DNA of 64,000 nt from Myxacorys almedinensis A. GTDB taxonomy: Bacteria > Cyanobacteriota > Cyanobacteriia > Leptolyngbyales > Leptolyngbyaceae. The notes beneath the pieces were generated by a model. That model was not told where the DNA came from. It was given only the letters and a program-made list of their open reading frames with translations, and made no database searches. Position 1 is the stretch's first letter; every line of letters starts with the position of its first letter. Positions 5,954 through 31,400 of this stretch are shown here, in pieces. The DNA is taken from contig NZ_WVIE01000006.1 in NCBI RefSeq assembly GCF_010091945.1, forward strand, positions 62,001 to 126,000, read 5' to 3'. Both the position numbers and the translations under genes were made by a program.

Positions 5954-6167
5954 TACTGTCGTTAGATGGTGAGAGGTTAAATCTAGGAGCAAGAACTTGT
6001 ATCTACCCAGGAACTATTTTTACAGCCAGATCGATCCGGCAAATCTTAGGTACCAAAAACCTTAAAAGTGCTGCTACTGCTCTAATTACTATAAATATAC
6101 GATCCCCATCGCAGGTTAGAACCTTGAGTTCGACAGAGTTTCTGCGCTGCGATCGCAGATCCGGGAA

Positions 6168-14574: not shown

Positions 14575-15078
14575 CTAGGGCAAGTCTTTCAGCTTTTGTA
14601 ACCGGAGCGTTGCTTCTTGCACTTGGGTTTGCAGCAGGGCTAGATTCGCCTCGATCGTCTTCTTATTGGCTTCCAAAACCTCGGTCTCTGTGCGTAAGCG
14701 AGCCATGCGCGCCCGATGATCAGCAGAACGACCGGGTTGGTAAATAATGCCAAAAGAAACAGTGACGTTTGACGCATCCAATGTGTTTGCCCCTACAGAC
14801 AGATTCATCCCAAAATCATTTTCTGTATTCACATAAGCATTGGGTAGCTGTAACGGTTGAATTGGAATGCTAACCGACGTAGAAGCGTTGACGGGCACTT
14901 GAACTTGAGGATTTGATTGAACAATTTGATTAAACGTCGAGTTACTTCCGATCGCACTTGTTTGGTTACTGGTTGCCACTTGAGCCTGGGCAACATGAGT
15001 TGTGGCGACCTCAGCCCCGATCAATCCTATCGTAGAGAGAACGATCGCTTTAATTGTGAAATGTTTTAGAAATTGCAT
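14575..15078 (-). CDS. Secreted protein with C-terminal coiled coil (unknown)
   Basis: A 167-residue protein with a signal peptide (about residues 1-32, cleavage near AQA-QV). The mature N-terminus is Ser/Thr/Asn/Gln-rich (NQTSAIGSNSTFNQIVQ), followed by a Val/Pro stretch and a segment of beta strands (NVTVSFGIIYQPG). The last 50 residues are a predicted coiled coil (RMARLRTETEVLEANKKTIE...). No known family was recognised. It is the last of five leftward genes for secreted proteins. Five 13-bp tandem repeats lie just upstream of its start. Confidence 0.7.
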   Translation of the reverse strand: MQFLKHFTIKAIVLSTIGLIGAEVATTHVAQAQVATSNQTSAIGSNSTFNQIVQSNPQVQVPVNASTSVSIPIQPLQLPNAYVNTENDFGMNLSVGANTLDASNVTVSFGIIYQPGRSADHRARMARLRTETEVLEANKKTIEANLALLQTQVQEATLRLQKLKDLP

Positions 15079-15127
15079 AGTCCACCGTTAAGCCAATCAA
15101 GTGTGAGCAGTTGAATATTTAAAATTA

Positions 15128-15192
15128 AAAACCCATTATGAAAACCCATTATGAAAACCCATTATGAAAACCCATGGTAAAAACCCATGGTA
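15128..15192. repeat. Five 13-bp tandem repeats upstream of a secreted-protein gene
   Basis: Three copies of AAAACCCATTATG (15128-15166) are followed by two copies of AAAACCCATGGTA (15167-15192). They begin 50 bp upstream of the ATG of the leftward gene at 15078, in its promoter or 5' leader. Direct, exactly phased repeats of 13 bp could be binding sites for a multimeric regulator or a slippage tract. Confidence 0.9.
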
Positions 15193-15266
15193 AAACGGTA
15201 TCCACACAGGATTCACAATGGGCAAACTTCACTAAGAGCAATGCTTAAACTGCAATCTTTATCGCA

Positions 15267-15929
15267 TCAGCGAACTACGATCGCTAATATCTGGTTTAGT
15301 CTTCCATTCCCGCTTGTCTGGTGCAACACTCGCGTTCCAGTTCCCGAAAATTCAATCTTTACAGGTGCATTCATGGGCGAATAGTGACCGTTAATTTCAA
15401 CAATCTTTGTCCCCTTAGACAGATAGGGAGCAAGATTGAAAGACGTACGAGCACCCTTTAAAGTCTGAATGACTTGACCATTGACTTTTATTTGCCCGCT
15501 CAGTTGCAGTCCTGGAGCCGAAATGGTGAGTTGGTAAGGTTGCTTTAGAGCAGCAGCAGCAAGGGTAATTGATGTTCGTTGAGTGGACTGTTGGGTTGAG
15601 CTAACACGAGTTTGTGAAACCTGCGATGTTTGAGAAAGATTGACTTGCGAACGGTTTGAACTGAAGTTTGAACTAAAGTTTGAACTGGGGTTTTGCATCG
15701 GTTCCTCCGGGGTTCTTTGCACAAATCGCACCCGCCAATTTTCAAGCGTGCGATGGGGCGAACCCGCAGAAGGCTTACCAAAATTCATTAATCTGGGGGC
15801 AGATTCAGACCGCATCACTATTCCATTATGGCTGATTTGTAGTGAGGGCTGCGCGAACCCGCCTTGAGCAAAACACAAAAAAGTCGCCAGCGTTCCACAA
15901 GTAGCGTGAAGCAAGGGTTGAATGTTCAT
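15267..15929 (-). CDS. Secreted protein with beta-sandwich-like C-terminus (unknown)
   Basis: About 220 residues. A signal peptide (near GGFA-QPS) is followed by a short conserved-looking region, then a low-complexity Ser/Asn/Gln segment containing NFSSNFSSN and SQTSQVSQT, then about 100 residues of alternating strands (YQLTISAPGLQLSGQIKVNG... TRVLHQTSGNG). The last part could be an Ig-like or PEGA-like fold. ATG 15929 is preferred to GTG 15938. Function unknown; it lies within the secreted-protein island. Confidence 0.68.
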   Translation of the reverse strand: MNIQPLLHATCGTLATFLCFAQGGFAQPSLQISHNGIVMRSESAPRLMNFGKPSAGSPHRTLENWRVRFVQRTPEEPMQNPSSNFSSNFSSNRSQVNLSQTSQVSQTRVSSTQQSTQRTSITLAAAALKQPYQLTISAPGLQLSGQIKVNGQVIQTLKGARTSFNLAPYLSKGTKIVEINGHYSPMNAPVKIEFSGTGTRVLHQTSGNGRLNQILAIVVR

Positions 15930-16055
15930 GACGATCACAGTTAAGAATTGATCATTGCTAAAGCAAAAGCAGAATTCAGTGACCAGCGATGAATGAAATT
16001 TTTCTAATGTTGGCTCCCAAATTCTGCATTACGGAGATGAAGTCACAGGTCATCC

Positions 16056-16484
16056 TTAGCTTATGGTGGGCTTTGGCACTCCGCTAAAGATGCCATTCAA
16101 AAAGGTCGGATCCATGGCAGGGCTGTAGACATCAACCTGGGTATTCACCGGAATTTGAATTGTTGGGCCACCTAACCCAGGAAGATTTGGCACACCTTCC
16201 ATGCCGTTGGTAATGGTAGAGTTGCTGTTGCGAATTTGAGTTACATCACCAGTAGCCACACCCGTTTGGGCGTTGGTTGTTACGGCTGCGCCTCCTACAC
16301 ACCCGTCGGGTGCTGCCATATTAACTGTGTTTGCTTGAGTAGAGGGTGTATGAGACCCATGGATGGCGAGTTGATTCGATACATCTAGCATGACGCACTG
16401 AGCCGATGCCGCAGAAGTCAAAGACGGCAGAAAGGGCAAGCATACAGAAAGCGAGAGCAAGCCGAAGCCGAGAGGTTTGAACAT
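16056..16484 (-). CDS. Small secreted Thr/Asn/Gly-rich protein (unknown)
   Basis: A 142-residue protein with a clear signal peptide (residues about 1-28, SAASA-QC). Two Cys remain in the mature part (QCVMLD and DGCVGG) and could form a disulfide. The centre, TNAQTGVATGDVTQIRNSNS, faintly echoes the Q/N/G spacing of its two curlin-like neighbours without clear repeats. No family recognised. Confidence 0.65.
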   Translation of the reverse strand: MFKPLGFGLLSLSVCLPFLPSLTSAASAQCVMLDVSNQLAIHGSHTPSTQANTVNMAAPDGCVGGAAVTTNAQTGVATGDVTQIRNSNSTITNGMEGVPNLPGLGGPTIQIPVNTQVDVYSPAMDPTFLNGIFSGVPKPTIS

Positions 16485-16595
16485 GAGAGTAGACTCCAGA
16501 ATGTAAAGAAGATAGACGTGAGTTGCGATCGCAGGTAGGAAAAAGGAAAGCCGCGATCGCGTTGCAAACCGTTTGAACCTAAGAATCGAGAAGTT

Positions 16596-16638
16596 GCCGA
16601 TTTTTTTAGGGAGCGTAGTCAGGAAATCGGCAAAACCT
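16596..16638. repeat. Inverted-repeat element, copy 1
   Basis: GCCGATTT (16596-16603) pairs with AAATCGGC (16624-16631), followed by AAAACCT. It lies 34-76 bp downstream of the curlin-like gene at 16672-17178. A near-identical element lies downstream of the paralogous gene (17232-17264). The 21 bases from 16618 and from 17244 differ at one position. Confidence 0.8.
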
Positions 16639-16671
16639 AGCGCCTGATGACAGTTCAGGGTGGAAGTTCGA

Positions 16672-17178
16672 CTAGTGTTGCAATACGATCGCCTCGGCGG
16701 AGTTCCCTTGAATTGCTGTGTTACCTACACCACTTTGAGCCGCATCTTGGACATTGCCTTGCACAACTTGAGCACCGTTAATACCCGGAACACCATAGTA
16801 TGGGAAGGGATACCCGCCTGCACCTTGAAACACGCTTGCAGCGCTAGAATTTCCCTGAATCGCAGTGTTACCAACCCCAACTTGATGAATATTTTGATGA
16901 TTGCCCTGCACAACAGTTGCACCATTAATTCCAGAAACAGGGCAAGGAGCAACAAAGCACTGAATTCCAGGATAAGCAACACCATTACCAACCTGATTCA
17001 CAATCCCAGTCTGAACATTACCCTGAACAGCTACATTACCACTACCGTTTTGAACAATGTTTTGGTCGGAACTTTGAATCACAGAAGCCGCATCTTGAGC
17101 AAACGCAGGAGCAGCAGCAAATCCGCAGATCGATGTGAAAACAGCCAGAGCGCAAGATTTAACTAATTTAGCAGACAT
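16672..17178 (-). CDS. Secreted curlin-like repeat protein 1
   Basis: A 168-residue protein with a signal peptide (residues 1-27, APAFA-QDA). The mature chain holds three 31-residue repeats at residues 32-62, 88-118 and 138-168, joined by Gly/Pro/Tyr linkers (INGATVVQ and GGYPFPYY). Each repeat follows V-x-Q-x3-Q-x3-Q-x-G-x-G-N-x-A-x-Q-G-N-x4-A-x-V-x-Q, close in spacing to the curlin repeat of CsgA/CsgB (Q-x-G-x-x-N-x-A). This suggests stacked beta-strand units of a functional amyloid. Export through a CsgG-like pore would be expected, but no CsgG, CsgE or CsgF gene is in the window. A paralogue lies immediately upstream. Amyloid formation is inference. Confidence 0.8.
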   Translation of the reverse strand: MSAKLVKSCALAVFTSICGFAAAPAFAQDAASVIQSSDQNIVQNGSGNVAVQGNVQTGIVNQVGNGVAYPGIQCFVAPCPVSGINGATVVQGNHQNIHQVGVGNTAIQGNSSAASVFQGAGGYPFPYYGVPGINGAQVVQGNVQDAAQSGVGNTAIQGNSAEAIVLQH

Positions 17179-17231
17179 GATTGAACCTTCCTAAGTTGAA
17201 TGGTGAACGTTATTTTGTGAGAGTAGGTGTC

Positions 17232-17264
17232 CCGATTTTTGATGTCAGGAAATCGGTAAAACCT
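17232..17264. repeat. Inverted-repeat element, copy 2
   Basis: CCGATTT (17232-17238) pairs with AAATCGG (17250-17256), followed by TAAAACCT. It lies 90-122 bp downstream of curlin-like gene 2 and 54-86 bp upstream of curlin-like gene 1, so it could act as a 3' processing/termination element or as an upstream regulatory site. No T tract follows on the gene strand. Confidence 0.8.
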
Positions 17265-17353
17265 GATCGAACCGTTGTTCGCCTTATCGTTTACGTTGTG
17301 TTGGCATTATTGCCTACGCTAGATTTGATCCACTGTTGACCGTGCGATTGGTA

Positions 17354-17824
17354 CTAATGTTGGATAACCGTTGCATCTGTGGAATTACCTTGAACTGCGG
17401 CATTGCCCAACCCATGCTGTAGAACACCTTGGCTACCACTTTGCAGTACGGTAGCACCATTGATGTCAGGAGCCGGATAGTAGGGGAAAGGATAGACCGT
17501 CGAGCCTTGCAGCACCTCAGCCGTGGTCACATTTCCTTGAACCGCACTATTGCCTGCACCCACTTGAGTAACACCTTGAGCATTGCCTTGGTGTATCACT
17601 GCACCGTTGATATCTCCCACGGGGAAGAAGGGCGCTCCAGTTTGGGTGATGATCCCCGTTTGTTGGCTGCCTTGAATCGCGACATTGCCTAAACCAACTT
17701 GAGCGGCGCTTTGTTCAGAGGTTTGAACAACAGAAGCTGCGTTTTGGGCAAAGGCTGGAGTAGACACGAATGCAGCAGACAGAAGACCGAAGACTGATAG
17801 CTTGATTGCTTTTACAGATGACAT
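17354..17824 (-). CDS. Secreted curlin-like repeat protein 2 (paralogue of repeat protein 1)
   Basis: A 156-residue protein with signal peptide TPAFA-QNA and the same plan as its downstream paralogue: three 31-residue repeats at residues 31-61, 76-106 and 125-155, each with Q-x-G-x-G-N-x-A-x-Q-G, separated by linkers containing DINGA and YPFPYY. Both proteins end in a repeat followed by a single His (V-I/L-Q-H). ATG 17824 is chosen because AAAGGAAAT precedes it and the signal peptide starts there; the frame is open to 17893 but adds a polar leader. The pair looks like a gene duplication that included the downstream inverted repeat. Confidence 0.8.
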   Translation of the reverse strand: MSSVKAIKLSVFGLLSAAFVSTPAFAQNAASVVQTSEQSAAQVGLGNVAIQGSQQTGIITQTGAPFFPVGDINGAVIHQGNAQGVTQVGAGNSAVQGNVTTAEVLQGSTVYPFPYYPAPDINGATVLQSGSQGVLQHGLGNAAVQGNSTDATVIQH

Positions 17825-18374
17825 GGTGGTATTTCCTTTCACTGAATAAGGTTTGTTTTTGTTAGAGAAGATTCCGCTTCGCTGATTCGTCACAATTCGA
17901 TTTCTAACTTATGCACATTGCGTTGAGTTTTTCGTTTTCTTTTTCAACTCGTTCGCCATAAATGTGGTTGCGCTAGTGATGAATTTCGTGGTTTTGAATC
18001 TTGTGAGTTTGGATTGTTTTCTCTCACACTCAGCACTACGACTCCTCGATTGGGTTTATGCAGCGATCGCTAGGCTTTTTCTAAAATTCGGCTCTTGAAA
18101 ATGCTCATAATCCTTATATAATAGGGGTTTCTGAATTTCAGGAAAATTCTTAGTTGAGATTGATCTTGGCTCAAATAGCTGCTTTAGACGAGAGTATTTA
18201 AAAGCGATCAGCCTCAACGTTTGGTTGACCCCATCCCCGCAGCGATCGCTATGACCCGATCTGCATAATCTTCTTAAGTCAGTCTTATTAAAAATTGGAA
18301 GCGAAACCGTCATTTTATGGAAGCGATCGTTTCACCGCATCGGAGGATTAGAGAGCTAGTTATAGGAGGTTAAA
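17825..18374. promoter_or_regulatory. Divergent intergenic region, curlin-like genes / kinase
   Basis: About 550 bp between the leftward secreted-protein genes and the rightward kinase. It contains promoters for both directions and a strong ribosome site, TAGGAGGTT (18363-18371), just before the kinase ATG. An 85-codon leftward frame at 18056-18313 has no recognisable features and is not called. Confidence 0.55.
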
Positions 18375-19784
18375 ATGGTTGAGCATCAGTTAGGCGATGC
18401 CTTTGTCAAAATTGTTTATGCCAAGGTGCAATCTAACGGTAGAACCGAAATGGTTCCGCTTAAGCTTTATGTGGATGGGTCACTAGAACACATTACCCAT
18501 TCTTTGTTTGCCTCAGATTCGGGAGTTTCTCCGCAGGCAATGCTGGGCAATCGATATCTGGTGCAACGAATTCTCGGTCAAGGGGGCTTTGGGCGAACCT
18601 ATTTAGCCGCCGATCAATACCGCTTTGACGAACTCTGCGTGTTGAAGGAGTTTTTGCCTCATAAAATAGGCGATTATGAAACGCAAAAGTCGCGCGATTT
18701 GTTTGAGCAAGAAGCTAAAATTTTGCACCAACTTGAACACGCTCAAATCCCCAAGTTTCTCGCTTATTTCGAGGAAGACGAGCGCCTCTTTTTGGTGCAA
18801 GAATTTGTCAAAGGTCGCACCTATTCATCGTTGCTGAGAGAGCGCCAGCAGCGAGGAGAAGCCTTCTCTGAGCTTGAGATTGTTGAATGGTTGCAGCAGT
18901 TGCTTCCGGTGTTAACTTACATTCACGATCGCGGCATCATTCATCGCGATATTTCCCCTGACAACATCATGCTCCATCAAGATCACAATGTTCCAATGTT
19001 GATCGATTTTGGGGTTGGCAAATGGACAATTAATATGCCGTATAACGGTGACGAAACCAAGCCGGAACCAGAAACAAAACCTATTTATTCGCGCAAGCAT
19101 TCTGTCGTGGGTAAGATTGGCTACGCGCCCCATGAACAGCTTTGGATGGGTCAATGTTTTCCCAACAGTGACTTATATTCCCTGGCAGTAACTGCGGTTG
19201 TGTTGCTCACTGGAAAAGCACCTCAAGCCTTGATTGATCCGCGATCGCTAGAGTGGCAATGGCGCAATTTTGCAACCGTTAGCGATCGCTTTGCTGACAT
19301 GCTTAACACTATGCTGGAAAATAAGCCCAGTGAACGGTATTCCTCAGCCCAGGATATTTTGGCAGTGTTGGAGGAGCGATCGTTGCGCGATCTAACCGAT
19401 GGCAGCCAGTCTGCTGATCCAGTCACTGTTGTGAGCCGTCCGGCTTTGCCAATTAATCAAGCCAACACTAATCAAGCCAACACCAATCGAGCCAACACGA
19501 AGCAAACCAATATTGAGCAGACCGCACCGCCGCTGCGGGTAAGTCCGCCTGCGGCGTTGTCGTTAAACCCGATATTTATCAACCGTTGCGAACAGGAACT
19601 GATGAATTATATTGGACCAATCGCCGCTTTTTTAGTGAATCAAGTGATTCGTGAGTGGCGCGATCGCAACGGCAACCCAGAGCAAATGTCTCTTACCTCC
19701 GAAGCATTGGTCACAGCATTGGCAGAAAAGATTCCCAATCAACATCAAGCGATTGAATTTCAACGTCAATTGTTACGACTCTAA
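18375..19784 (+). CDS. Serine/threonine protein kinase with shared C-terminal domain
   Basis: A Hanks-type kinase of 469 residues with no membrane segment. The kinase domain spans about 61-335: glycine loop GQGGFG (68-73), catalytic Lys91 (VLKEF), HRDISPDN with Asp192, and DFG at 211-213. A low-complexity linker (361-382) repeats N-Q-A-N-T, encoded by 15-bp tandem units. The last 70 residues (400-469) form a small helical domain with YIGPIAAFLV and F-Q-R-Q-L-L, also found in triplicate at the end of the caspase protein at 23253-25838. The FHA-domain transporter gene between them could read its phosphothreonine products. ATG 18375 follows TAGGAGGTT. Confidence 0.93.
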   Translation: MVEHQLGDAFVKIVYAKVQSNGRTEMVPLKLYVDGSLEHITHSLFASDSGVSPQAMLGNRYLVQRILGQGGFGRTYLAADQYRFDELCVLKEFLPHKIGDYETQKSRDLFEQEAKILHQLEHAQIPKFLAYFEEDERLFLVQEFVKGRTYSSLLRERQQRGEAFSELEIVEWLQQLLPVLTYIHDRGIIHRDISPDNIMLHQDHNVPMLIDFGVGKWTINMPYNGDETKPEPETKPIYSRKHSVVGKIGYAPHEQLWMGQCFPNSDLYSLAVTAVVLLTGKAPQALIDPRSLEWQWRNFATVSDRFADMLNTMLENKPSERYSSAQDILAVLEERSLRDLTDGSQSADPVTVVSRPALPINQANTNQANTNRANTKQTNIEQTAPPLRVSPPAALSLNPIFINRCEQELMNYIGPIAAFLVNQVIREWRDRNGNPEQMSLTSEALVTALAEKIPNQHQAIEFQRQLLRL

Positions 19785-19903
19785 TTTCAGAATAGATTGC
19801 ATAAAAGATTTAAAGCAGTCGTATCAATCAATAGAACAATTAAAAAGCAAACCAGTTCTCTAACGTAATTATCACTATCTTACAACGCTAAAGAGGTCAT
19901 ACC

Positions 19904-20440
19904 ATGTCTCATTCAATTCAACGCATCGTTAAACTTAGTGGAATGCTTCCTATTTTACTAGGAATGATGGCATTTAGCCCAACCAAAGCTTCTGCGCTTG
20001 ATGTTTCACAGATTCCGCTCTTGGGTTCAGTGCTTCAGCGCGGCTTGTCGATAGAACCAAGCGTACGACTTTTAGATCAAGGCTTAAGCCGAAATAATGT
20101 GCAGCTTTGCGTTTTATCTTGCTCGCCGTTGCCCAATGGTATACCTCCTATCTCCTCTCCGCCAGCAGGTCGAGTTCTCGCACCCGGAACCGGAGCCGTT
20201 GGGGGGTCGCTTCCTCAGCAAATGATGCAGCTTCCCGCTCATGTGTTGCAGCAGGGAATGCAGATCCCAAATCAAATTTTGCCGTCCCAGTCGATGCCGC
20301 AACCGTTACCGCAAGGCGTTCCTGGCTTACCTCAACCGGGGCTTTCTCAACCGGGTCAAGTTCGGGCAGGGCAGGCTCCTGTGCTCCAGCAGTTGGGGCA
20401 AACATTGCAGCCACAAATTAGGCAAGCGATCGGGCGATAA
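19904..20440 (+). CDS. Secreted Pro/Gln-rich protein (unknown)
   Basis: A 178-residue protein with a signal peptide (about residues 1-31, TKASA-LD). The N-terminal mature part (LLGSVLQRGLSIEPSVRLLDQ) looks folded and includes two nearby Cys (LCVLSC); the remainder is low-complexity Pro/Gln/Gly (MPQPLPQGVPGLPQPG). The AAAGAGGTC before the ATG is a reasonable ribosome site. It lies between the kinase and the ABC transporter on the same strand and is closed by a terminator. It could be a cell-wall or matrix protein; no family recognised. Confidence 0.7.
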   Translation: MSHSIQRIVKLSGMLPILLGMMAFSPTKASALDVSQIPLLGSVLQRGLSIEPSVRLLDQGLSRNNVQLCVLSCSPLPNGIPPISSPPAGRVLAPGTGAVGGSLPQQMMQLPAHVLQQGMQIPNQILPSQSMPQPLPQGVPGLPQPGLSQPGQVRAGQAPVLQQLGQTLQPQIRQAIGR

Positions 20441-20470
20441 ATACAATTCATAACCTTGGGTTTCCTCCTT

Positions 20471-20504
20471 AGCCTCTCTTTTGACCTAGAAGAGAGGCTT
20501 TTTT
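20471..20504 (+). terminator. Rho-independent terminator
   Basis: AGCCTCTCTT (20471-20480) pairs with AAGAGAGGCT (20490-20499) and is followed by a run of T. It ends the transcript of the secreted Pro/Gln-rich gene before the ABC transporter. Confidence 0.9.
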
Positions 20505-20583
20505 CAGCCCTAATGGGCGATCGCACCTTGCATAACGCCCTGATCCTTGTCGTAGAGACAGATGAAGGCATTTTCAGCACGCC

Positions 20584-23043
20584 ATGTTTGGGAGTATTGC
20601 CATGATTGAGACCTTGCACAACGCCACCCTGATCAGCCAAGCTCAGCCCTTTATTGAATTAGACAATCACGGAGAGGTGTTGCGCTTTCAGTTGCAAGAA
20701 GCCCGGTATTTTTTGGGGCGCGATCGCACCTGGTCAGACTTGGAAATTCCCGAACAAGGATGGGATGTGCTATCAAGAAGGCAAGCCGTTTTACAACGGG
20801 AAGGCGATCACTATCGGATCTATGATGGTGATGGTCATAGTACTAGTCGAAATGGCATTTTTATTCGCCATACTCAAATTTCTGAACAGGGCTATGTGCT
20901 CAAGCATGGAACACAATTAGAAATCGGGCAAGATGCCAGTAATCAGATCAAATTGACGTACATTGATCCGGCAAGTAGCCCCACCGTCACGCCCAGTAAT
21001 CTACGGTTGGATTTGAAACGGCTACGAGAAACCCCGGTAGAACTTGGGCGAGAACCTGATGCGACTCGCTATGCCTCAATGACGTTAGAATCGCCGGTGG
21101 TGTCTCGTCGCCATGCCACCGTTTACGCTACACCAGATGGTGGGTTTACCCTGCAAGATCACAGCACCAATGGCACCTTTGTGAATGGGCAACGGGTCGA
21201 GCGGTTTGCAAAACTGCATGAGAGCGATCGCATTCGGATTGGTCCGTTTACGCTGGTCTATCAGCACGGGATCTTGGAACTTGCCGATCGCGGTAATCAG
21301 ATTCGTCTCGACGCCGCGCATCTCGTTCGCAAAGTGACGGATAAACTCAACACCGAACGAGTGATTTTAGACGATGTTTCCCTCTCAATCGAGCCGGGGC
21401 AGTTGGTCGCATTGGTGGGGGGCAGTGGTGCTGGAAAATCTACACTGATGAAAACGCTATTGGGAATAGAACCGACAACATCTGGAAAAGTTTATTTGAA
21501 TGGTGATGATCTACGGCAACACTTTGATTTGTATCGCTCTCAGTTGGGCTATGTGCCGCAAGATGATATTGTGCATTGCGACTTAACGGTAGAAGAAGTT
21601 TTACTGTATGCGTGCAAACTTCGATTGCCAGCAGATACCAATGCTAAGCAAATTGTGCAGAAAACGTTAGAGCAAATCAAACTCCACCATGTTAAACATA
21701 CGTTTATTCGTGACTTAAGCGGTGGGCAGCGAAAACGAGTTAGCATTGGCGTCGAACTGCTTGCCGATCCAAAACTGTTCTTTCTCGATGAACCGACTTC
21801 TGGACTCGACCCAGGGCTTGACAAAGAAATGATGAATCTGCTGCGCGAGTTGGCAGACCAAGGACGTACGGTGATTTTGGTGACTCACGCCACGGCAAAT
21901 TTAGAAGCGTGCGATCGCATTGCCTTTATGGGTCGAGGCGGCAAACTTTGCTATTTTGGGTCGCCTCAAGGCGCGCTCGACTTTTTCGAGATGCCAGAGG
22001 CTGATTTAAAGTATTTTGCAGACATTTACATCAAGCTTGATCAGGGCAAAACCAAGCAAGACGTTCACGCAACCGTGCAGCACTGGGCAACCAAATTTCA
22101 TCAGTCTCAGTCTCACCATTTAGCGCTAAATCCGGTTGGGAGGGAGTCTTCTAACCGATCTGCGCCATCAAACATGGGATCTCAACGACGCTATTCTCCG
22201 GTTCAGCAACTGAGATTGCTGAGCCAGCGCTATGGGCAATTGGTGATGCGCGATCGCATGAGTTTAGGCTTGGCACTGCTCACTGGGCCAATTGGCATCG
22301 CACTCATTTATCTGGCAGTGCAGACCCGCGATCCGTTGATCCCCGTTACGCCGCAAGACGCCATGCACGCCTCGCTCAGCTTGCGAACGCTCCTTGTGAT
22401 TAGCTGCATTGCGATTTGGGTCGGCATTTCCTGTTCTGCCCAAGAGATTGTCAAAGAAGCTCCTATCTACGCCCGCGAGCGCTTGGTCAATTTGGGGTTA
22501 CTGCCTTACCTCGGCTCAAAAGTGCTGATTCGCTCTGGCATTGCCGCTGTGCAAACCCTGTTGCTGATCGCTGCAATTTTGCTCAGCCTTCACTCGCCTG
22601 CCCCCGACCTGTTGCCCTGGGTTTTTGGGCTAGGCATGACCAACTTTCTCACCCTCTTTAGTAGCCTCTGCTTAGGATTGCTCCTCTCTACGGTTGTTAA
22701 AACTGAAAACCAGGCGAACAATGCTCTGCCGCTGATTATGATTCCTCAACTGATTTTTTCTGGCATTTTATTCGAGCTACAAGGCTTGCCAACCCAGCTA
22801 TCTTGGCTGATGGTGAGTCGATGGTCTGTCGGCGCGTATGGCGCATTGGTAGACGTGAATCAGATGATCCCTGAAGCGATTCAGATTCCGGGTAGAGCGC
22901 CGATCGCTCAACCACTTCAGGTTAATGCTGTGTATGATGCTACTTGGCAAAACTTGGGGTTGAATTGGGCAATGTTGGGCGCAAGTGCGATCGCCTATCT
23001 TGCGATCGCACTCTACCTCCAAAAACGCAAAGACGTGATCTGA
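20584..23043 (+). CDS. ABC transporter with two N-terminal FHA domains (ABCG-like half transporter)
   Basis: An 819-residue fusion. FHA domain 1 (about 39-115) has GRD and SRNG but Gln in place of the usual His in S-x-x-H. FHA domain 2 (151-225) is complete: GRE, SRRH (174-177), TNG (195-197), so it should bind phosphothreonine. The ATPase follows: Walker A GGSGAGKST (279-287), signature LSGGQRKR (378-385), Walker B FFLDEP (399-404). An ABC2-type membrane domain with about six helices occupies 555-815. The order ATPase-membrane matches ABCG-type exporters. The substrate is unknown. ATG 20602 is an alternative start. The kinase gene upstream is a plausible source of the phosphorylated ligand. 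Confidence 0.9.
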   Translation: MFGSIAMIETLHNATLISQAQPFIELDNHGEVLRFQLQEARYFLGRDRTWSDLEIPEQGWDVLSRRQAVLQREGDHYRIYDGDGHSTSRNGIFIRHTQISEQGYVLKHGTQLEIGQDASNQIKLTYIDPASSPTVTPSNLRLDLKRLRETPVELGREPDATRYASMTLESPVVSRRHATVYATPDGGFTLQDHSTNGTFVNGQRVERFAKLHESDRIRIGPFTLVYQHGILELADRGNQIRLDAAHLVRKVTDKLNTERVILDDVSLSIEPGQLVALVGGSGAGKSTLMKTLLGIEPTTSGKVYLNGDDLRQHFDLYRSQLGYVPQDDIVHCDLTVEEVLLYACKLRLPADTNAKQIVQKTLEQIKLHHVKHTFIRDLSGGQRKRVSIGVELLADPKLFFLDEPTSGLDPGLDKEMMNLLRELADQGRTVILVTHATANLEACDRIAFMGRGGKLCYFGSPQGALDFFEMPEADLKYFADIYIKLDQGKTKQDVHATVQHWATKFHQSQSHHLALNPVGRESSNRSAPSNMGSQRRYSPVQQLRLLSQRYGQLVMRDRMSLGLALLTGPIGIALIYLAVQTRDPLIPVTPQDAMHASLSLRTLLVISCIAIWVGISCSAQEIVKEAPIYARERLVNLGLLPYLGSKVLIRSGIAAVQTLLLIAAILLSLHSPAPDLLPWVFGLGMTNFLTLFSSLCLGLLLSTVVKTENQANNALPLIMIPQLIFSGILFELQGLPTQLSWLMVSRWSVGAYGALVDVNQMIPEAIQIPGRAPIAQPLQVNAVYDATWQNLGLNWAMLGASAIAYLAIALYLQKRKDVI

Positions 23044-23252
23044 CGCCTACGTGATCGTTTTGAACGTGTAAATCATAAAATTTGAGAAGTTTAATTTATA
23101 ACTACGGTTGCCGCATCTCGGCGGTTTGAGATGTAATGTTAACTGTAAAGCTCTGTACTCTGAACCCCTAGGTTGGAACGAAAGGTTAGAACGAAATGTC
23201 AAATGCTTCGGAGTCGATGGACTGTTCTTTAGTGTGTTGAGCGGGTTAAGAA

Positions 23253-25838
23253 ATGCCTCCAGTGGGTGTCGGTGCTAGTCGATTTGCGTTTGCCCTAGAA
23301 ACGGGCAGAGCAAAACTGTGGGTGCTCCTGATTGGGGTCAATCATTACGACGACGAAACTCTGCCCACCTTGCGGTACGCTGCTCTAGATTGCCAAGGGC
23401 TAGGCGAAGCCCTAACCGCCGCAACTCAGGCATTTCCCCAAAAAGAATTTCTGATTCATCACGATTTAGTCTCCAACAAGCCAACATTAGACGCCGTTCA
23501 AGCCAGTTTGCAGCGACTGGTGACAGAAGCCAAAGCAGAAGACACCATCCTCACTTATTTTTCAGGACATGGCATCGTAGATCCCGCCAGCCATCAGACG
23601 GTGCTGTGTCTTGCAAATACCCAAAAACAGAATGCGCCATCGACAGGGTTATGTCTTCAAAACATGCTACAGCAGCTAGGAGACTGTAGCGCCCACAGCC
23701 AGATCGTTTGGCTCGATGCCTGTCATAGTGGCAATATCACCTTACAAGGTGCGAAAGGGCAGGCGGTTGATCCGGCATTGCTGAATCCGACGCCACAATT
23801 GCTAGACCTGCTGAGACAGCGCGCCGCTAAAAGTCGCGGGTTTTATGCGCTGCTGTCGTGCGATCAAGGGCAGCAATCCTGGGAATTTCCTGACTTGGGT
23901 CATGGGGTGTTTAGCTATTACCTGATGCGCGGGTTGCGAGGCGAGGCGGCAGATGCCCACGGCGTGATCGATGCGGATGGACTCTACCGCTATGTTTATC
24001 ACCAGACACTTCAGTATGTAGAGCAAACCAATCAGCAGTTGCGGTTGGTCAACCAGCAAAAGCGCAACAAAGGCGACTCGCAGTTTCATTCAGAATATTC
24101 GTTGCAGACCCCGAAGCGGATTGTTGAAGGAGTCGGCGAAACGATTTTGGGACTCAAGCCTAAAACGACCCAGTTTTGGCAAGAACGACAGGCACTCTTG
24201 ATTAACGGATTGACGCACTATCCGCTCAGCATGGCATTTGCAGACGTGCTGCACCACAACGGTAGCTTTGATTTAGAGTGCTTTCCACCGGCTGATCGCC
24301 CAAGTTTTGATTGTTCGTGGTTGGAGGTGAGAACTGCGATCGCGCGCTTTCTCCAGTCTGATCCCGCTTTGCCAAAGCCTCAGATCAGTGCGGGAATGCA
24401 GCAGATTGCCACCCGGTTGCTTTACCTGCGGGGCAGCATTGCCACCTCGGCAGATGGCGATTCTTGGCTCGTGTTGGGCGATGGTGTTCAGATTAGCCGA
24501 GCGTGGCTCCGGCAGGAATTGCGGCGATCGCCCACGGCGCAACAAATTGTGATTCTCGATTGTCCGGGGGCGGTAGGGCTAGAAGATTGGCTGGAAGATC
24601 TCAAAATTGCTTCAGATTATGGGCAGTGTATTCTTGCCTGCGCCTCTCCGTTAGATGAGCCAGAACTATTTGCTCAGGTGCTGTTAGAAGCCTTGATTGC
24701 CGCAAATCCTCGTACGGGATTGTCGATCGCAAGCCTGCTCGCCAAGCTGCAAACAAATCTCGATGGATTGGGGTTAATGTGCCATCTTTGGCTGTCAGGA
24801 ACCCAAGGCTTGATCGAAGTGTTGCCCTCGACGTTGGGAATCGATGGTTCTTCGACTCCGCCAGAGCGCGAGAGTGCTGCGCCCCTAGAGGTTACTGCGG
24901 CTTTGTTAGAGATGCCCAAAGCACCCGCCCAGCCGTTGCTTGAGATCGGCACACCTGCGATCGAGATCGCCGAGACAACTCTGCCGGTTTCTGACCTAGC
25001 AGAACGTTTGACACCGATTCTGCTCTCTTTGGTGGGCCCTGTCGCGCCCCTGGTTATGGCTCAAGCTGCTGCCCAAGCCGATGATCCGCAGGGGTTGATT
25101 GAGGAGTTGTTACTGCTCGTACCCGCCGCCCAACGCGCCACGTTTGAGCAGCAAGCCCAATTTGCGATCCAGCAAGCCGCGCGATCGCGCATAGCCGAAC
25201 CCAGCGAATCCTCGCCAGAGCCACTTGCCGATGCCTCCGGTTCTCCCACTCACCCATCACCGGCTCTTTCGCACCCTAGCTCAGAGCACACGCCGCCCCA
25301 TGAGTCTGCGCCAGACATCGTATTATCTGCCGAATCGTTAGCAATTGTTGAGTCTGTTTTGCTCGATGTAGTGGGGCCGATCACCCCGGTTTTGCTCAGC
25401 CATCTTCCGCCGCACATCTCCAGCGTTGCGGGACTCGTAGCAACGCTGTCAGATTATCTTTCTCCTCAGCAATGCGCGGTGGTTGAGCAACGGTTGAGTG
25501 CGGCAGTTCCAACGGCTACACCCCCGACTGTATCTCAGCCCCCGGCGCTGGTAGAGTCGCTCAATCCTCCTTCTGAGGGGCACGGGCGTGGCATTGCAGA
25601 CTCGCGCGATCGCCAAGGCATTGATGAGAAATTTATTCAAACCTGTGAGTATGAGTTGACGCTGGTAATTGGGCCGATCGCAAAATGGATGGTGACTGGG
25701 CAGCGAGAAGCGATCCGTGCTTGCCCTACGGGAACTGCGTCATGGTCGTCTGAGGCCTTTGTTGAGGCGTTGGCATCTAGCATTCCGGATGCCCGTAAAG
25801 CGGCTGAGTTTCGGCAGCGAGTGCTAAAGTCTGCTTGA
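23253..25838 (+). CDS. Caspase-family (C14) protein with pseudo-caspase and three C-terminal repeat domains
   Basis: An 861-residue protein. Residues about 20-285 form a caspase/metacaspase domain with catalytic His106 (FSGHG) and Cys157 (LDACHSG). Residues about 310-525 look like a degenerate second copy: LYLRGS stands where YFSGHG is expected and VILDCPGA where LDACHSG is. Three small domains follow, each with a V/I-G-P-I/V helix: 583-645, 696-753 and 793-861, separated by Pro/Ser linkers. The last is plainly homologous to the kinase C-terminus (400-469 there). Such sharing suggests homotypic docking between kinase and protease. ATG 23253 precedes the first strand by about 20 residues. Confidence 0.88.
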   Translation: MPPVGVGASRFAFALETGRAKLWVLLIGVNHYDDETLPTLRYAALDCQGLGEALTAATQAFPQKEFLIHHDLVSNKPTLDAVQASLQRLVTEAKAEDTILTYFSGHGIVDPASHQTVLCLANTQKQNAPSTGLCLQNMLQQLGDCSAHSQIVWLDACHSGNITLQGAKGQAVDPALLNPTPQLLDLLRQRAAKSRGFYALLSCDQGQQSWEFPDLGHGVFSYYLMRGLRGEAADAHGVIDADGLYRYVYHQTLQYVEQTNQQLRLVNQQKRNKGDSQFHSEYSLQTPKRIVEGVGETILGLKPKTTQFWQERQALLINGLTHYPLSMAFADVLHHNGSFDLECFPPADRPSFDCSWLEVRTAIARFLQSDPALPKPQISAGMQQIATRLLYLRGSIATSADGDSWLVLGDGVQISRAWLRQELRRSPTAQQIVILDCPGAVGLEDWLEDLKIASDYGQCILACASPLDEPELFAQVLLEALIAANPRTGLSIASLLAKLQTNLDGLGLMCHLWLSGTQGLIEVLPSTLGIDGSSTPPERESAAPLEVTAALLEMPKAPAQPLLEIGTPAIEIAETTLPVSDLAERLTPILLSLVGPVAPLVMAQAAAQADDPQGLIEELLLLVPAAQRATFEQQAQFAIQQAARSRIAEPSESSPEPLADASGSPTHPSPALSHPSSEHTPPHESAPDIVLSAESLAIVESVLLDVVGPITPVLLSHLPPHISSVAGLVATLSDYLSPQQCAVVEQRLSAAVPTATPPTVSQPPALVESLNPPSEGHGRGIADSRDRQGIDEKFIQTCEYELTLVIGPIAKWMVTGQREAIRACPTGTASWSSEAFVEALASSIPDARKAAEFRQRVLKSA

Positions 25839-27503: not shown

Positions 27504-28739
27504 CTACTCGATCGGAAAACCAGGAATCAGTTGATCAATTTCTTGCATGATCTGCCTGGTTTCTTTGAGGGCAACAACAACTTTTTGATAGTGCAAGACA
27601 TCATCAAAAGATAAAGTACGTTTGGCTTTTTTACGATCTTTTAGCCATTTGTCTAACACTTGATAACCGCCGATCTTAAACTCCCAAACTTCGGGGGCGA
27701 TGCCTTCAAAGTAGCGATCGCCATTAATATAAACTCGCTGCTCTGTCGGTTTATAAGTCACTTCAGTAACGGCATTGTCGCCATTGCCGCCCATTTTAGT
27801 AATGAGCTTGTTGAGTTTTTTCGATTTCATCAGGTGCAGTTCTACCAACGCCTGACCTTTTGTGCCCAGATCTTTGAACAGGTGATCGCTGCTGGTTAAC
27901 GGCACACGGGGAAAGTCACTTTTTAGGAATTTGGCATAGCGATCGCGATAGGTGGGACTGTGGAAGATGGCGTAGATGTAGTAAAAGATGGCTTCTGGAG
28001 TGGGGACATAGCCAAGCTTTTCTCGAATTGCTGTGATGAAATCTGAAGACAAATTTGGAGATTTTTCAACAAACAATTGACTTTGTTGATTGGCAATATC
28101 AGGATAGAGGTAAAGAGGAAAAGCATTACTGCCATCTTTTAATTCAACATACAGTGCAGGAGTTGGAGTATTAGCTACAAATGCATGTCGCCAGTCATCA
28201 GCTTTAGTTTGTCTGACAACATTCAGAAAAATGTTCTCTTCAGTAAAATGTTGTTGAAAAATAACTCTGGGATAATCCATTGCAATTGTGCTGAAGTAGC
28301 AAGAACGCAAATCGAAAGGTCGGTAGAAAAATTTGATCAACCACCTTTTCCAGTCTTGTATCTGCCGTATTCTCTGCCTTGCCTTGGTTAAGCTCCAATC
28401 TCGATTATCCTTAAGAGCATATTTACTTCTAATTTCCTCGTCAGAAAATCGTGTATCTCTAAATTCTTGAAGTCTCTGTTGAAGTTGTTCTTGACTATAT
28501 GCGATCGCAAAATCATCTCGGTGACTTTGGAATCCAAGAGTGTTAATAGGAAATATTTTATTAATTTGCCAACCTGGATCGTATTCTAGCCGTAAGTCTT
28601 GATCTTGTGGAGCAAAAAGGTAGAGTGGAGATTTTGGAAAGATTTCTGTCCACTCAACTGTAGTAATATCATGCTCCTGAAGATAACGATCTTTATCTTC
28701 TCGTGAACCCCAGAGATCAGTGTGATAAAACTTGGTCAT
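27504..28739 (-). CDS. Restriction-modification protein, C-terminal part (specificity/helical region)
   Basis: A 411-residue protein that corresponds to the C-terminal half of type IIG/ISP-like single-chain restriction-methylation enzymes. It begins MTKFYHTDLWGSREDK, a motif normally internal, following the methyltransferase and helicase-independent core, and continues with KFFYRPFDLR and a region that would hold target recognition. The N-terminal half is encoded by 29324-31177; about 580 bp with HicB-type genes separate them. ATG 28739 is preceded by GTGAAG. The split is clean: neither half has lost obvious sequence. Whether the halves reassemble is unknown. Confidence 0.82.
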   Translation of the reverse strand: MTKFYHTDLWGSREDKDRYLQEHDITTVEWTEIFPKSPLYLFAPQDQDLRLEYDPGWQINKIFPINTLGFQSHRDDFAIAYSQEQLQQRLQEFRDTRFSDEEIRSKYALKDNRDWSLTKARQRIRQIQDWKRWLIKFFYRPFDLRSCYFSTIAMDYPRVIFQQHFTEENIFLNVVRQTKADDWRHAFVANTPTPALYVELKDGSNAFPLYLYPDIANQQSQLFVEKSPNLSSDFITAIREKLGYVPTPEAIFYYIYAIFHSPTYRDRYAKFLKSDFPRVPLTSSDHLFKDLGTKGQALVELHLMKSKKLNKLITKMGGNGDNAVTEVTYKPTEQRVYINGDRYFEGIAPEVWEFKIGGYQVLDKWLKDRKKAKRTLSFDDVLHYQKVVVALKETRQIMQEIDQLIPGFPIE

Positions 28740-29099: not shown

Positions 29100-29327
29100 T
29101 TACCCAATAGCAACCTCCAATCGAGTCACAAAAACTTCTGTATGCAAGCGATTCTGTATTTCTAAAGAATCAGCTACTTCAAAAAAAAGTTGCAGAGCTT
29201 CAATCAAATTGTTTTTTGCTTCTTCTACCGAATTCCCCTGACTGGCAATGTCCAGTTCTGGACACAGTGATACGTAACCATTCCCTCCACGCTCAATAAT
29301 TGCTGTGAATTGTTGAACTCGTTTCAT
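29100..29327 (-). CDS. Second HicB-like protein, orphan
   Basis: A 75-residue protein with the HicB-type fold: FTAIIERGGNGYVSLCPELD, then QGNSVEEAKNNLIEALQLFFE. Its ATG overlaps the stop of the restriction-modification N-terminal gene as ATGA, indicating translational coupling. No hicA follows; 78 bp later the other hicB begins. It may be an orphan antitoxin or a regulator. Confidence 0.8.
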   Translation of the reverse strand: MKRVQQFTAIIERGGNGYVSLCPELDIASQGNSVEEAKNNLIEALQLFFEVADSLEIQNRLHTEVFVTRLEVAIG

Positions 29328-31177
29328 GCTGCTTTCTCCTTGGAATATTTAACCATCAAACAAACTGCTACCCCTTGCTGAATATCAAATACATTTTTAT
29401 CCGGGGAGCCATCGGGAGAAACTTCTTTTTTTCTGCTGTTGCCGTGCAAATCCATCAGGTAAATCTCATCAAAGGTTTGCTCTAAACTCTGGCGCATTCC
29501 TCGAAAGGTTGGGTTATCAAGATAGCCGTGATTGGTGATGAATGCCAGAATGCCAGAACCCGTCCTGTCAATTCGCCATTGCCCAAACCGAATAAATTTC
29601 ACATAGTCATCTTGTAACCATTTGGAATTTCGCTCTCCTAATGGCATCCCGTCTACTTGATAATAGTCGCGCAACAAACCCTCGATCCACTGACTTTTGT
29701 TTGCCGAATGTCCTGAATAAGGGGGATTGCCCAACACCACCATTACCGGGGCATCGCGTTTAATTTCTGAGGCTTCGTTTGCTTCCTGTGCGACAAACTG
29801 ACCAAACAAAATCTCTGATTTTTTGAGTGCTTCATCTAACGTATTCGTGAGGTAAATGCCTAGTCGTTGTTTGCCCTTAAATTGGTAGCCGAGTTCCTGA
29901 AGTGCTAGACCGAGTTTGAGGTGAGCGATCGCATAAGGAGCCATCAATAACTCAAACCCAAACAACCGATTTAGCAAATTATCTTTCACATAGCTATCCC
30001 ACTGATTCGCCATACCAATGTCTTCCAGATTGCGATAAATCTGCTTGATCACCTCATACAAAAACGTGCCCGTCCCCGTTGCCGGATCAAGAATTTGCAC
30101 TCTGGGCTTTTGCGTCACCGGATCTTTAGCGTTATCAGCTAAACCCAACGGCAAATCAAAGCGATCTTTCAAAATCGCATCTACCGATCGCACAATAAAA
30201 GACACCACAGGTTCAGGCGTATAATAAACGCCCCGACTCTTCCGCAAAGCCGCATTATACGCCGCCAAAAACGTCTCATAAAAATGCACAACCGGATCTT
30301 CTTGACGAGTTCGCTGCCCAAAATTTTCTAAAATGCTGCCCATCTCCACCTGAGACAGCACCTCCACCAAGTCATCAATCGCCCAATCAATCTGACTCAC
30401 CGCATCGGTTTCTACGATCGTATTAAACAACCGCTTCAAAAAAGGATTGGTTGCCGGAATATACGTGCCAGCTGTCCGCCGAGTAAACGCCTCACCTCCC
30501 GGCTTTTGCACATGACCCACCCTTGCCGCAAACAACCCATAAGAAATCGTCTGAGCATACATATCCGCAAAATCTGCATCATTCAAATCGGGCAACAACA
30601 CCTCAATAAAGCCCTGCTTCAGTTGATGCAAATCGCCCCCAATTTCTTCCCCATCAAGAGCCGTTGTTGTTGCCAACCGAATCGCCTTTGTCAACCTCGC
30701 CATCTGCCGCGCTAGGTCTTCAGGGCTGCTGATAATTTCGCCCGTATAGTTGAGAAACTGATCCAACAGAGCAGAAATTTTGTCAGCATTCTTAGCTTGC
30801 AGATTGCTACCATTGCGCTCTGCTAAAACCTCCTTCTGCCTGCGCTTCCCATCTACATACCAACGAAACTCTAGATAATTGGTCAACACCAAGTTGGGAA
30901 ACGATTCTAGATATCGTTGCAACTGCTCCGTCTTTTCAACCTGATCTAGGTCTAACCCCACATCTTTAGCCTCTACATAACCCGTCAACAACTCTCGCCG
31001 CCTTACCGTAAAGTCTGGAATCCCGGCTTTGTTGCCTTTTTCTTCAATTACTGCATCTAGTCCTACAGCAGGATCATCCAACAAATCTTTTAATGCTGGG
31101 TAATGGCTGCGCTCACTACCTTTTTGCAGATTCTTTTGAATCGACTTGAGATAAGCATCAAACGCGAGAGATGGCAT
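29324..31177 (-). CDS. Restriction-modification protein, N-terminal part (nuclease + N6-adenine methyltransferase)
   Basis: A 617-residue protein. The N-terminus carries a PD-(D/E)xK nuclease signature: Pro54-Asp55 (GIPDF) and E69-A-K71 (YVEAK). A helical linker leads to an N6-adenine methyltransferase with SAM motif DPATGTGTF (about 360) and catalytic NPPY (about 479). The chain stops after QQGVAVCLMVKYSKEKAA, where related single-chain enzymes continue into the part encoded at 27504-28739. The frame is open upstream to 31306; ATG 31177 is chosen because MPSLAFDAYL is the natural N-terminus. The order on the transcript is N-part, hicB-like, hicB/hicA remnant, C-part. Confidence 0.88.
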   Translation of the reverse strand: MPSLAFDAYLKSIQKNLQKGSERSHYPALKDLLDDPAVGLDAVIEEKGNKAGIPDFTVRRRELLTGYVEAKDVGLDLDQVEKTEQLQRYLESFPNLVLTNYLEFRWYVDGKRRQKEVLAERNGSNLQAKNADKISALLDQFLNYTGEIISSPEDLARQMARLTKAIRLATTTALDGEEIGGDLHQLKQGFIEVLLPDLNDADFADMYAQTISYGLFAARVGHVQKPGGEAFTRRTAGTYIPATNPFLKRLFNTIVETDAVSQIDWAIDDLVEVLSQVEMGSILENFGQRTRQEDPVVHFYETFLAAYNAALRKSRGVYYTPEPVVSFIVRSVDAILKDRFDLPLGLADNAKDPVTQKPRVQILDPATGTGTFLYEVIKQIYRNLEDIGMANQWDSYVKDNLLNRLFGFELLMAPYAIAHLKLGLALQELGYQFKGKQRLGIYLTNTLDEALKKSEILFGQFVAQEANEASEIKRDAPVMVVLGNPPYSGHSANKSQWIEGLLRDYYQVDGMPLGERNSKWLQDDYVKFIRFGQWRIDRTGSGILAFITNHGYLDNPTFRGMRQSLEQTFDEIYLMDLHGNSRKKEVSPDGSPDKNVFDIQQGVAVCLMVKYSKEKAA

Positions 31178-31400
31178 TGTGGTTTTGGCTCCAGTGCGAT
31201 CGTTAGAGGTTTGGGGGTTGCATAATGCGAGGAGGGCAAATCCGAGAGTCCTGCTCGCATTATGCAAGATCGAATCACAATCAGTGCGATCGCAATTCGA
31301 TCCCATCGAAGCCCATCAATTTCAAGTCGTCAATCCCAATGTCACCATCATCAGCACGCTCCTGGGCTGATACTCCACCTATCACCAGACCCCCAACCTA

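Follow-up and report, generated by a model that had tools for sequence, protein, structure and literature searches.

A predicted STAC-like tail on a cyanobacterial Ser/Thr kinase and caspase and its genomic pairing with HAMP-only heme receptors

A Ser/Thr kinase and a caspase-family protein encoded in 64,000 nucleotides of the cyanobacterium Myxacorys almedinensis A (contig NZ_WVIE01000006.1, positions 62,001 to 126,000; this whole analyzed stretch is referred to here as the window) end in homologous tails of about 70 residues. Judged from its sequence, this common tail is a STAC-like domain that probably acts as a plug, joining soluble effectors to receptors that consist of a sensor and a HAMP domain and have no output domain of their own. 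This reading is based on the STAC relationship, the genomic pairing of tails with receptors, their co-divergence and an intact caspase dyad at the level of sequence, together with a similar helical plan in structure models. A single domain would thereby mark the missing outputs of HAMP-only receptors. The locus consists of four open reading frames on the + strand, encoding the kinase, a 178-residue protein, an ABC transporter with FHA domains (FHA-ABC) and the caspase. Its tail-bearing features are as follows.

18375..19784, + strand: Ser/Thr kinase, 469 residues, Pkinase domain at residues 62-328
19563..19778, + strand: STAC-like tail of the kinase, residues 397-468, motif YIGPIA (alignment and AlphaFold2)
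23253..25838, + strand: caspase-family protein, 861 residues (NCBIfam NF047832, fold search)
24984..25163, + strand: caspase STAC-like copy 1, residues 578-637, LVGPVA (alignment, profile)
25323..25502, + strand: caspase STAC-like copy 2, residues 691-750, VVGPIT (alignment, profile)
25620..25829, + strand: caspase STAC-like copy 3, residues 790-859, VIGPIA (alignment, profile, helices)

Homology of the tails and their relationship to STAC

A preliminary description of this locus had proposed that the kinase and caspase termini are homologous and that the caspase holds two further, more divergent copies, and both proposals hold. The two C-terminal regions align with a BLOSUM62 score of 99, compared to a mean of 21.7 for shuffled sequences (z 21.5; 0/500 shuffles), and the kinase tail is 39% identical to the last caspase tail over 73 columns. 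Of the three caspase copies, copy 3 is close to the kinase tail and the other two are divergent. Copies 1 and 2 resemble each other (z 7.1) and the kinase tail (z 5.0 and 4.1, respectively; 2/500), the comparison of copy 2 with copy 3 (z 0.5) is on its own not significant, and the two divergent copies are recovered as members by an iterated family profile and are kept in close orthologues. The model of the kinase tail is all-helical (AlphaFold2, pLDDT 91). The tail has no match among the Pfam, NCBIfam or PHROG families, and effector-associated domains (EADs) gave no Pfam match to the tails, as far as Pfam's library covers EADs.

The tail is assigned to STAC because it has a profile match to, a motif and genomic partner in common with, and a similar predicted helical plan to Af1502 of A. 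fulgidus (5a1q), the STAC family structure, which has four helices, two hairpins and a nine-residue linker (PMC4834066). When a profile of 40 tail sequences was compared with 177,635 PDB sequences, Af1502 was the only significant match (E 0.0014, 26 residues aligned; the next match had an E of 1.8), and it was also first with an earlier profile of 23 sequences (E 0.12). The STAC motif LGPx(x)A sits between helices 1 and 2 (PMC4834066), and in the xGPx(x)A motif of the 40 tails the G is invariant and the P nearly invariant. In caspase copy 3, GPIA (residues 807-810) is located at a helix break, the predicted helices being 792-806, 810-822, 833-842, and 847-860, while in the model of the 72-residue tail helices 1 and 2 run together, unlike in the four-helix model of caspase copy 3. 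Af1502 was also the first Foldseek match of the tail model (TM 0.52/0.55), although a weak one (E 2.4), and its comparison with the tail by VIA gave a likewise weak Z of 5.8 over 63 residues. Other helical proteins, 3ddh among them, were also matched by Foldseek and VIA, and this resemblance was discounted as the geometry that helical bundles commonly have.

With known STACs (Af1502, CbrA, CrbS) the tails have in common the xGPx(x)A motif, a similar predicted helical plan, the significant profile match to Af1502 and the coupling to HAMP-only receptors. Known STACs are, however, stand-alone proteins of 60-90 residues or linkers between SLC5 transporters and signaling domains, whereas here STAC is a C-terminal tag, often in two or three copies, on Ser/Thr kinases, caspases, cyclases, a histidine kinase and Roadblock-like proteins, and is also an insert within MscS channels. 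STACs of the Af1502 type are encoded beside receptors with HAMP as their sole cytosolic part (PMC4834066). In the cryo-electron microscopy structure of CbrA, STAC is docked against the membrane transporter domain (PMC13022988), which is consistent with a receptor-reading role. The role of STAC was called unknown in a 2017 paper.

Distribution of the tail and its pairing with HAMP-only receptors

Profile searches, in which only the best candidates per genome were scored so that tail counts are lower bounds, found the tail in 32 of 386 cyanobacterial genomes. It is carried mostly by Ser/Thr kinases (one or two copies), then by caspases (two or three copies), and in addition by cyclase-kinase fusions (loci L046, L047, L050), a histidine kinase (L074), a second caspase type (L042) and small proteins (L054, L125, L126). 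The idea that the tail is a real and reusable coupling domain on kinases, caspases and other signaling enzymes is borne out by these carriers, and the wide distribution of the tail goes along with a predominance of kinases rather than with loss of the kinase/caspase linkage. Plasmid-borne tails are found in Acaryochloris and Rippkaea only, and a search of phages found no tail.

The tail genes adjoin a gene of about 300 codons whose product has a periplasmic DUF3365 domain carrying the heme motif CxxCH, spans the membrane with two segments and terminates in a HAMP domain, and a gene for a PhnD-like periplasmic binding protein is often beside them as well. Counted without correction for shared ancestry, and with some neighbors hidden by contig ends, DUF3365 is present in 32 of 32 tail genomes, against 96 among all 386 genomes (hypergeometric 5e-22), and a DUF3365 gene of 290-350 residues (about 305, the size of a HAMP-only receptor) lies within 2 kb of 29 of the 45 tail genes, where 0.14 would be expected within 5 kb. 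None of the 17 longer DUF3365 genes is near a tail gene. Of the 22 tail-caspase loci, 19 have DUF3365 within 10 kb, compared to 0 of 31 loci of tail-less caspases (Fisher 1.3e-11), the latter also being without PhnD neighbors (0/31), and a sigma factor and DUF1822 adjoin most tail caspases.

These receptors are similar to those of the Af1503 type in having an N-terminal extracytoplasmic sensor, HAMP as the only cytosolic part and a STAC partner gene nearby. They differ in that the sensor is a c-type-heme Cache domain (with other sensors in Myxococcota) and in that the STAC gene brings an enzyme. Sensors of this DUF3365 type, sCache_heme, are present in about 30% of cyanobacteria according to a preprint, the text of which makes no mention of caspases or PhnD, and the link of sCache_heme receptors to tail effectors appears to be new.

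Two further kinds of protein are encoded near DUF3365 genes. Three MscS channels have a tail-like insert before a cyclic-nucleotide-binding domain (L078 6647-8269, L079 6822-8462, L080 6169-7812), each about 1.8 kb from a DUF3365 gene, and these tail proteins are possibly heme-gated channels. A second Ser/Thr kinase flanks the DUF3365-HAMP receptor opposite the tail kinase in L052, L055, L056, L057, L069, L070, L071, L077, and L105; these kinases have WD40 repeats and no tail and were rejected as tail carriers.

A search of Myxococcota with the tail profile gave 6 positive genomes out of 97. The six loci were found by the tail only, and in all of them a HAMP-ending receptor is nearby, the sensors of these receptors being of three kinds. 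In five loci the receptor directly adjoins the tail gene or is at most 1.3 kb away, and in L185 one gene intervenes. Two double-tail kinases are beside DUF3365-HAMP, and four tail proteins termed Roadblock/LC7-like from a reading of their sequence, with no profile match (L182, L183, L185, L186), are near HAMP-only receptors with other sensors. Across the phyla sensor and effector vary, and HAMP and the tail are constant.

Five cyanobacterial genomes have two receptor-tail pairs. Between species, members of the same pair type are 85% (receptor) and 79% (tail) identical, compared to 46 and 33%, respectively, for the other pair in the same genome. A corresponding co-divergence of kinase and caspase tails was not found, the own kinase having a mean rank of 4.9 out of 11 where 6 is expected, although domains of 63 residues resolve little. 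Matching of receptor-tail pairs and no such matching of kinase and caspase tails together favor a receptor-tail over a tail-tail partnership.

In the window's genome the receptor is located elsewhere. A single 16.7-kb contig of Phormidium tanganyikae FI6-MK23 carries the caspase, DUF3365-HAMP, PhnD, sigma factor, DUF1822, curlin-like genes, tail kinase, the 178-residue protein gene and FHA-ABC, and in Myxacorys californica FHA-ABC and the caspase are followed by DUF3365-HAMP, PhnD, sigma factor and DUF1822. In the genome of the window, DUF1822, the sigma factor, PhnD and DUF3365-HAMP are clustered on another contig (C3, at 59.9-64.5 kb). Since this cluster is beside the caspase in sister taxa, the window contains half of a split super-locus. 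The receptor on C3 (about 63.6-64.5 kb) is 85% identical to that of M. californica and, like sCache_heme (DUF3365/Tll0287), matches PF11845 (1.9e-44) with CxxCH and HAMP (9e-13), the HAMP match ending 10 residues short of the C-terminus (Pfam). It is the likeliest partner of the kinase and caspase tails in this genome.

Upstream of the window's kinase, five small exported proteins are encoded at 14575-17893 (- strand), some of them with curlin-like N/Q-rich repeats (for example 16672-17178 and 17354-17893, - strand). In P. tanganyikae their homologues (L162 5743-8512) separate DUF1822 from the kinase, which places the five within the ancestral super-locus.

Proposed mechanism and alternative explanations

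In the proposed mechanism, an output-less heme receptor, possibly one for nitric oxide (NO), would switch STAC-tagged kinases, caspases, cyclases, histidine kinases and channels. A heme ligand or redox state, perhaps together with the PhnD-like protein, would alter the periplasmic sensor, and NO is the best candidate by analogy with a heme Cache protein, likewise with a HAMP domain, that binds NO and gives it up slowly (PMC12889525). The change in the sensor would be transmitted across the membrane to HAMP, which would bind or release the STAC tails of kinase and caspase, thereby clustering or freeing both. The kinase would phosphorylate clients, probably including the FHA-ABC transporter, while the caspase would be activated by proximity and would cleave targets, possibly the cell's own. 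The result for the cell may be death, defense, stress adaptation or a change of the envelope, and no finding of this analysis demonstrates a defense against phages. By means of a STAC plug, bacteria may thus connect kinases, and perhaps a cell-death protease, with signals from outside, and an upstream trigger by way of a membrane heme sensor is offered for the cyanobacterial caspase family, the activating signals of which are debated. A more tentative extension is that HAMP-only receptors with exchangeable sensors could act on any STAC-tagged effector, in which case the cyanobacterial caspase effector would make the system a heme/NO-gated counterpart of death receptors.

Several points weigh against the attachment of tails to such receptors. 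By sequence, Af1502 aligns with the first half of the tail only, and the structural match is weak alone, as helical bundles often give a Z under 13. Deletion of STAC in CbrA/CrbS had no obvious phenotype (PMC5715377), and NO binding was demonstrated for a Pseudomonas protein only. Several tail genes (such as L042, L043, L044, L072, and L075) are without a receptor nearby, no receptor adjoins the kinase and caspase of the window, and the overall correlation of the receptor and tail distance matrices (0.73-0.74) reflects species phylogeny in part.

The preliminary description had instead proposed a homotypic contact, in which the tails of kinase and caspase bind each other and the activated kinase recruits the caspase, in the manner of effector-associated domains, as death-fold domains also do. 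Both proteins bear the tail, caspases and many kinases have two or three copies of it, as is frequent in oligomerizing modules, and tail kinases are repeatedly encoded close to tail caspases: of 22 tail-caspase loci, 11 have another tail gene within 2-8 kb, in most cases for a kinase. However, the tails of a genome's own kinase and caspase were not found to be more alike than those of different species, within the limited resolution of such short domains, most tail kinases are in genomes with no detected tail caspase, Af1502 is monomeric (PMC4834066), and linkage to the receptor exceeds that between kinase and caspase. The tail goes and co-diverges with HAMP-only receptors instead, and a homotypic adaptor is considered unlikely. 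What is shared with the EADs of bacterial conflict systems and with EACC1-caspases is that one small helical domain is swapped among effectors that include caspases; the tails differ in having no Pfam match, an unsupported homotypic pairing and, apparently, a receptor as partner. EACC1 was not named in Pfam scans of the adjacent genes, in which no EACC1-specific model was run.

The tail could also be a mere oligomerization or localization module with no receptor partner, the linkage to DUF3365 then reflecting a shared island or regulon that includes the sigma factor and DUF1822. Because these two genes adjoin tail-less caspases in 6 of 31 loci, neighbors can indeed be inherited as islands. The same 31 loci have neither DUF3365 nor PhnD as neighbors, however, and the pairing persists across effectors, gene orders, orientations and a second phylum with other sensors, which makes this explanation improbable.

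A further possibility involves the FHA-bearing transporter that had been noted between kinase and caspase, the domains of which are confirmed by Pfam (two FHA stretches at 7e-28, ABC_tran and ABC2_membrane).

20584..23043, + strand: ABC transporter with two N-terminal FHA domains, 819 residues, Rv1747-like architecture (Pfam)

In the PknF/Rv1747 system, too, a Ser/Thr kinase is encoded close to a transporter of the ABCG type that has two FHA domains and an ABC2 membrane domain. PknF is a membrane kinase, whereas the kinase here is soluble with a STAC tail and has a caspase alongside. PknF/Rv1747 is an established pair (PMC3908365, PMC5549992) and a precedent for pairing of kinase and transporter, and because of this analogy the FHA-ABC transporter is probably a client of the kinase. 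Relatives of FHA-ABC are found in 58 of 377 cyanobacterial genomes. Of the cascade proposed earlier, the kinase-transporter pair is retained and the transporter as a constant part is not, as most of its orthologues are away from tail genes. In a phospho-cascade, the kinase would phosphorylate regions of the transporter and caspase, these regions would become ligands of the FHA domains, and the transporter would export a product, with the caspase regulated mainly through FHA-phosphothreonine contacts. This is in keeping with that precedent, with the presence of Ser/Thr kinases close to FHA-ABC relatives in 8 of the 20 loci inspected and with the order of kinase, 178-residue protein gene and FHA-ABC kept in P. 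tanganyikae, but it is very improbable given that FHA-ABC is missing from nearly all tail-caspase loci and frequent in tail-less genomes, and it leaves the tail unexplained.

The caspase and other features of the window

Two domains precede the tail copies in the caspase.

23322..24005, + strand: catalytic region, residues 24-251, dyad H106 and C157 (NF047832 match, orthologue alignment)
24186..24824, + strand: second alpha/beta domain, residues 312-524, with no His/Cys dyad (domain also present in WD40 and GUN4 caspases)

The match to NF047832 (136.3 bits) is below the 140-bit cut-off, H106 and C157 are invariant in 12 tail-caspase orthologues, and the fold search matched the MALT1 paracaspase and metacaspases. 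By dyad and fold the protein is a predicted caspase-family protease. The dyad-less second domain is present in all caspase relatives, the WD40 and GUN4 forms included, and is possibly a degenerate caspase-like regulator. The first 530 or so residues of the caspase are common to other cyanobacterial caspases that have WD40 repeats or GUN4 in place of the tail, so that the tail is one among several C-terminal modules that can be exchanged for each other.

The kinase domain was confirmed by Pfam (E 3e-36), and the motifs HRDISPDN and DFG are present on direct reading of the sequence. No transmembrane-like segment was found by hydropathy, in keeping with a soluble kinase. Two features are located between the kinase and transporter genes.

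19904..20440, + strand: 178-residue protein, signal-peptide-like N-terminus, P/Q-rich
20471..20499, + strand: terminator-like stem-loop, 13 pairs and a T run (consensus match only)

The 178-residue protein has a homologue at the equivalent place in P. tanganyikae (34% identity). As the terminator-like stem is between its gene and the transporter, the kinase and the 178-residue protein gene on the one hand and the transporter and caspase on the other may be two transcription units.

Elsewhere in the window, an open reading frame for the C-terminal specificity part of a type ISP restriction-modification enzyme adjoins one for an N6-methyltransferase (27504-28739 and 29324-31306, - strand), the two being either a split gene or a single frameshifted gene. 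In addition, a hybrid histidine kinase whose N-terminus resembles that of ethylene receptors (ETR1_N) is encoded at 3323-5992 (- strand).

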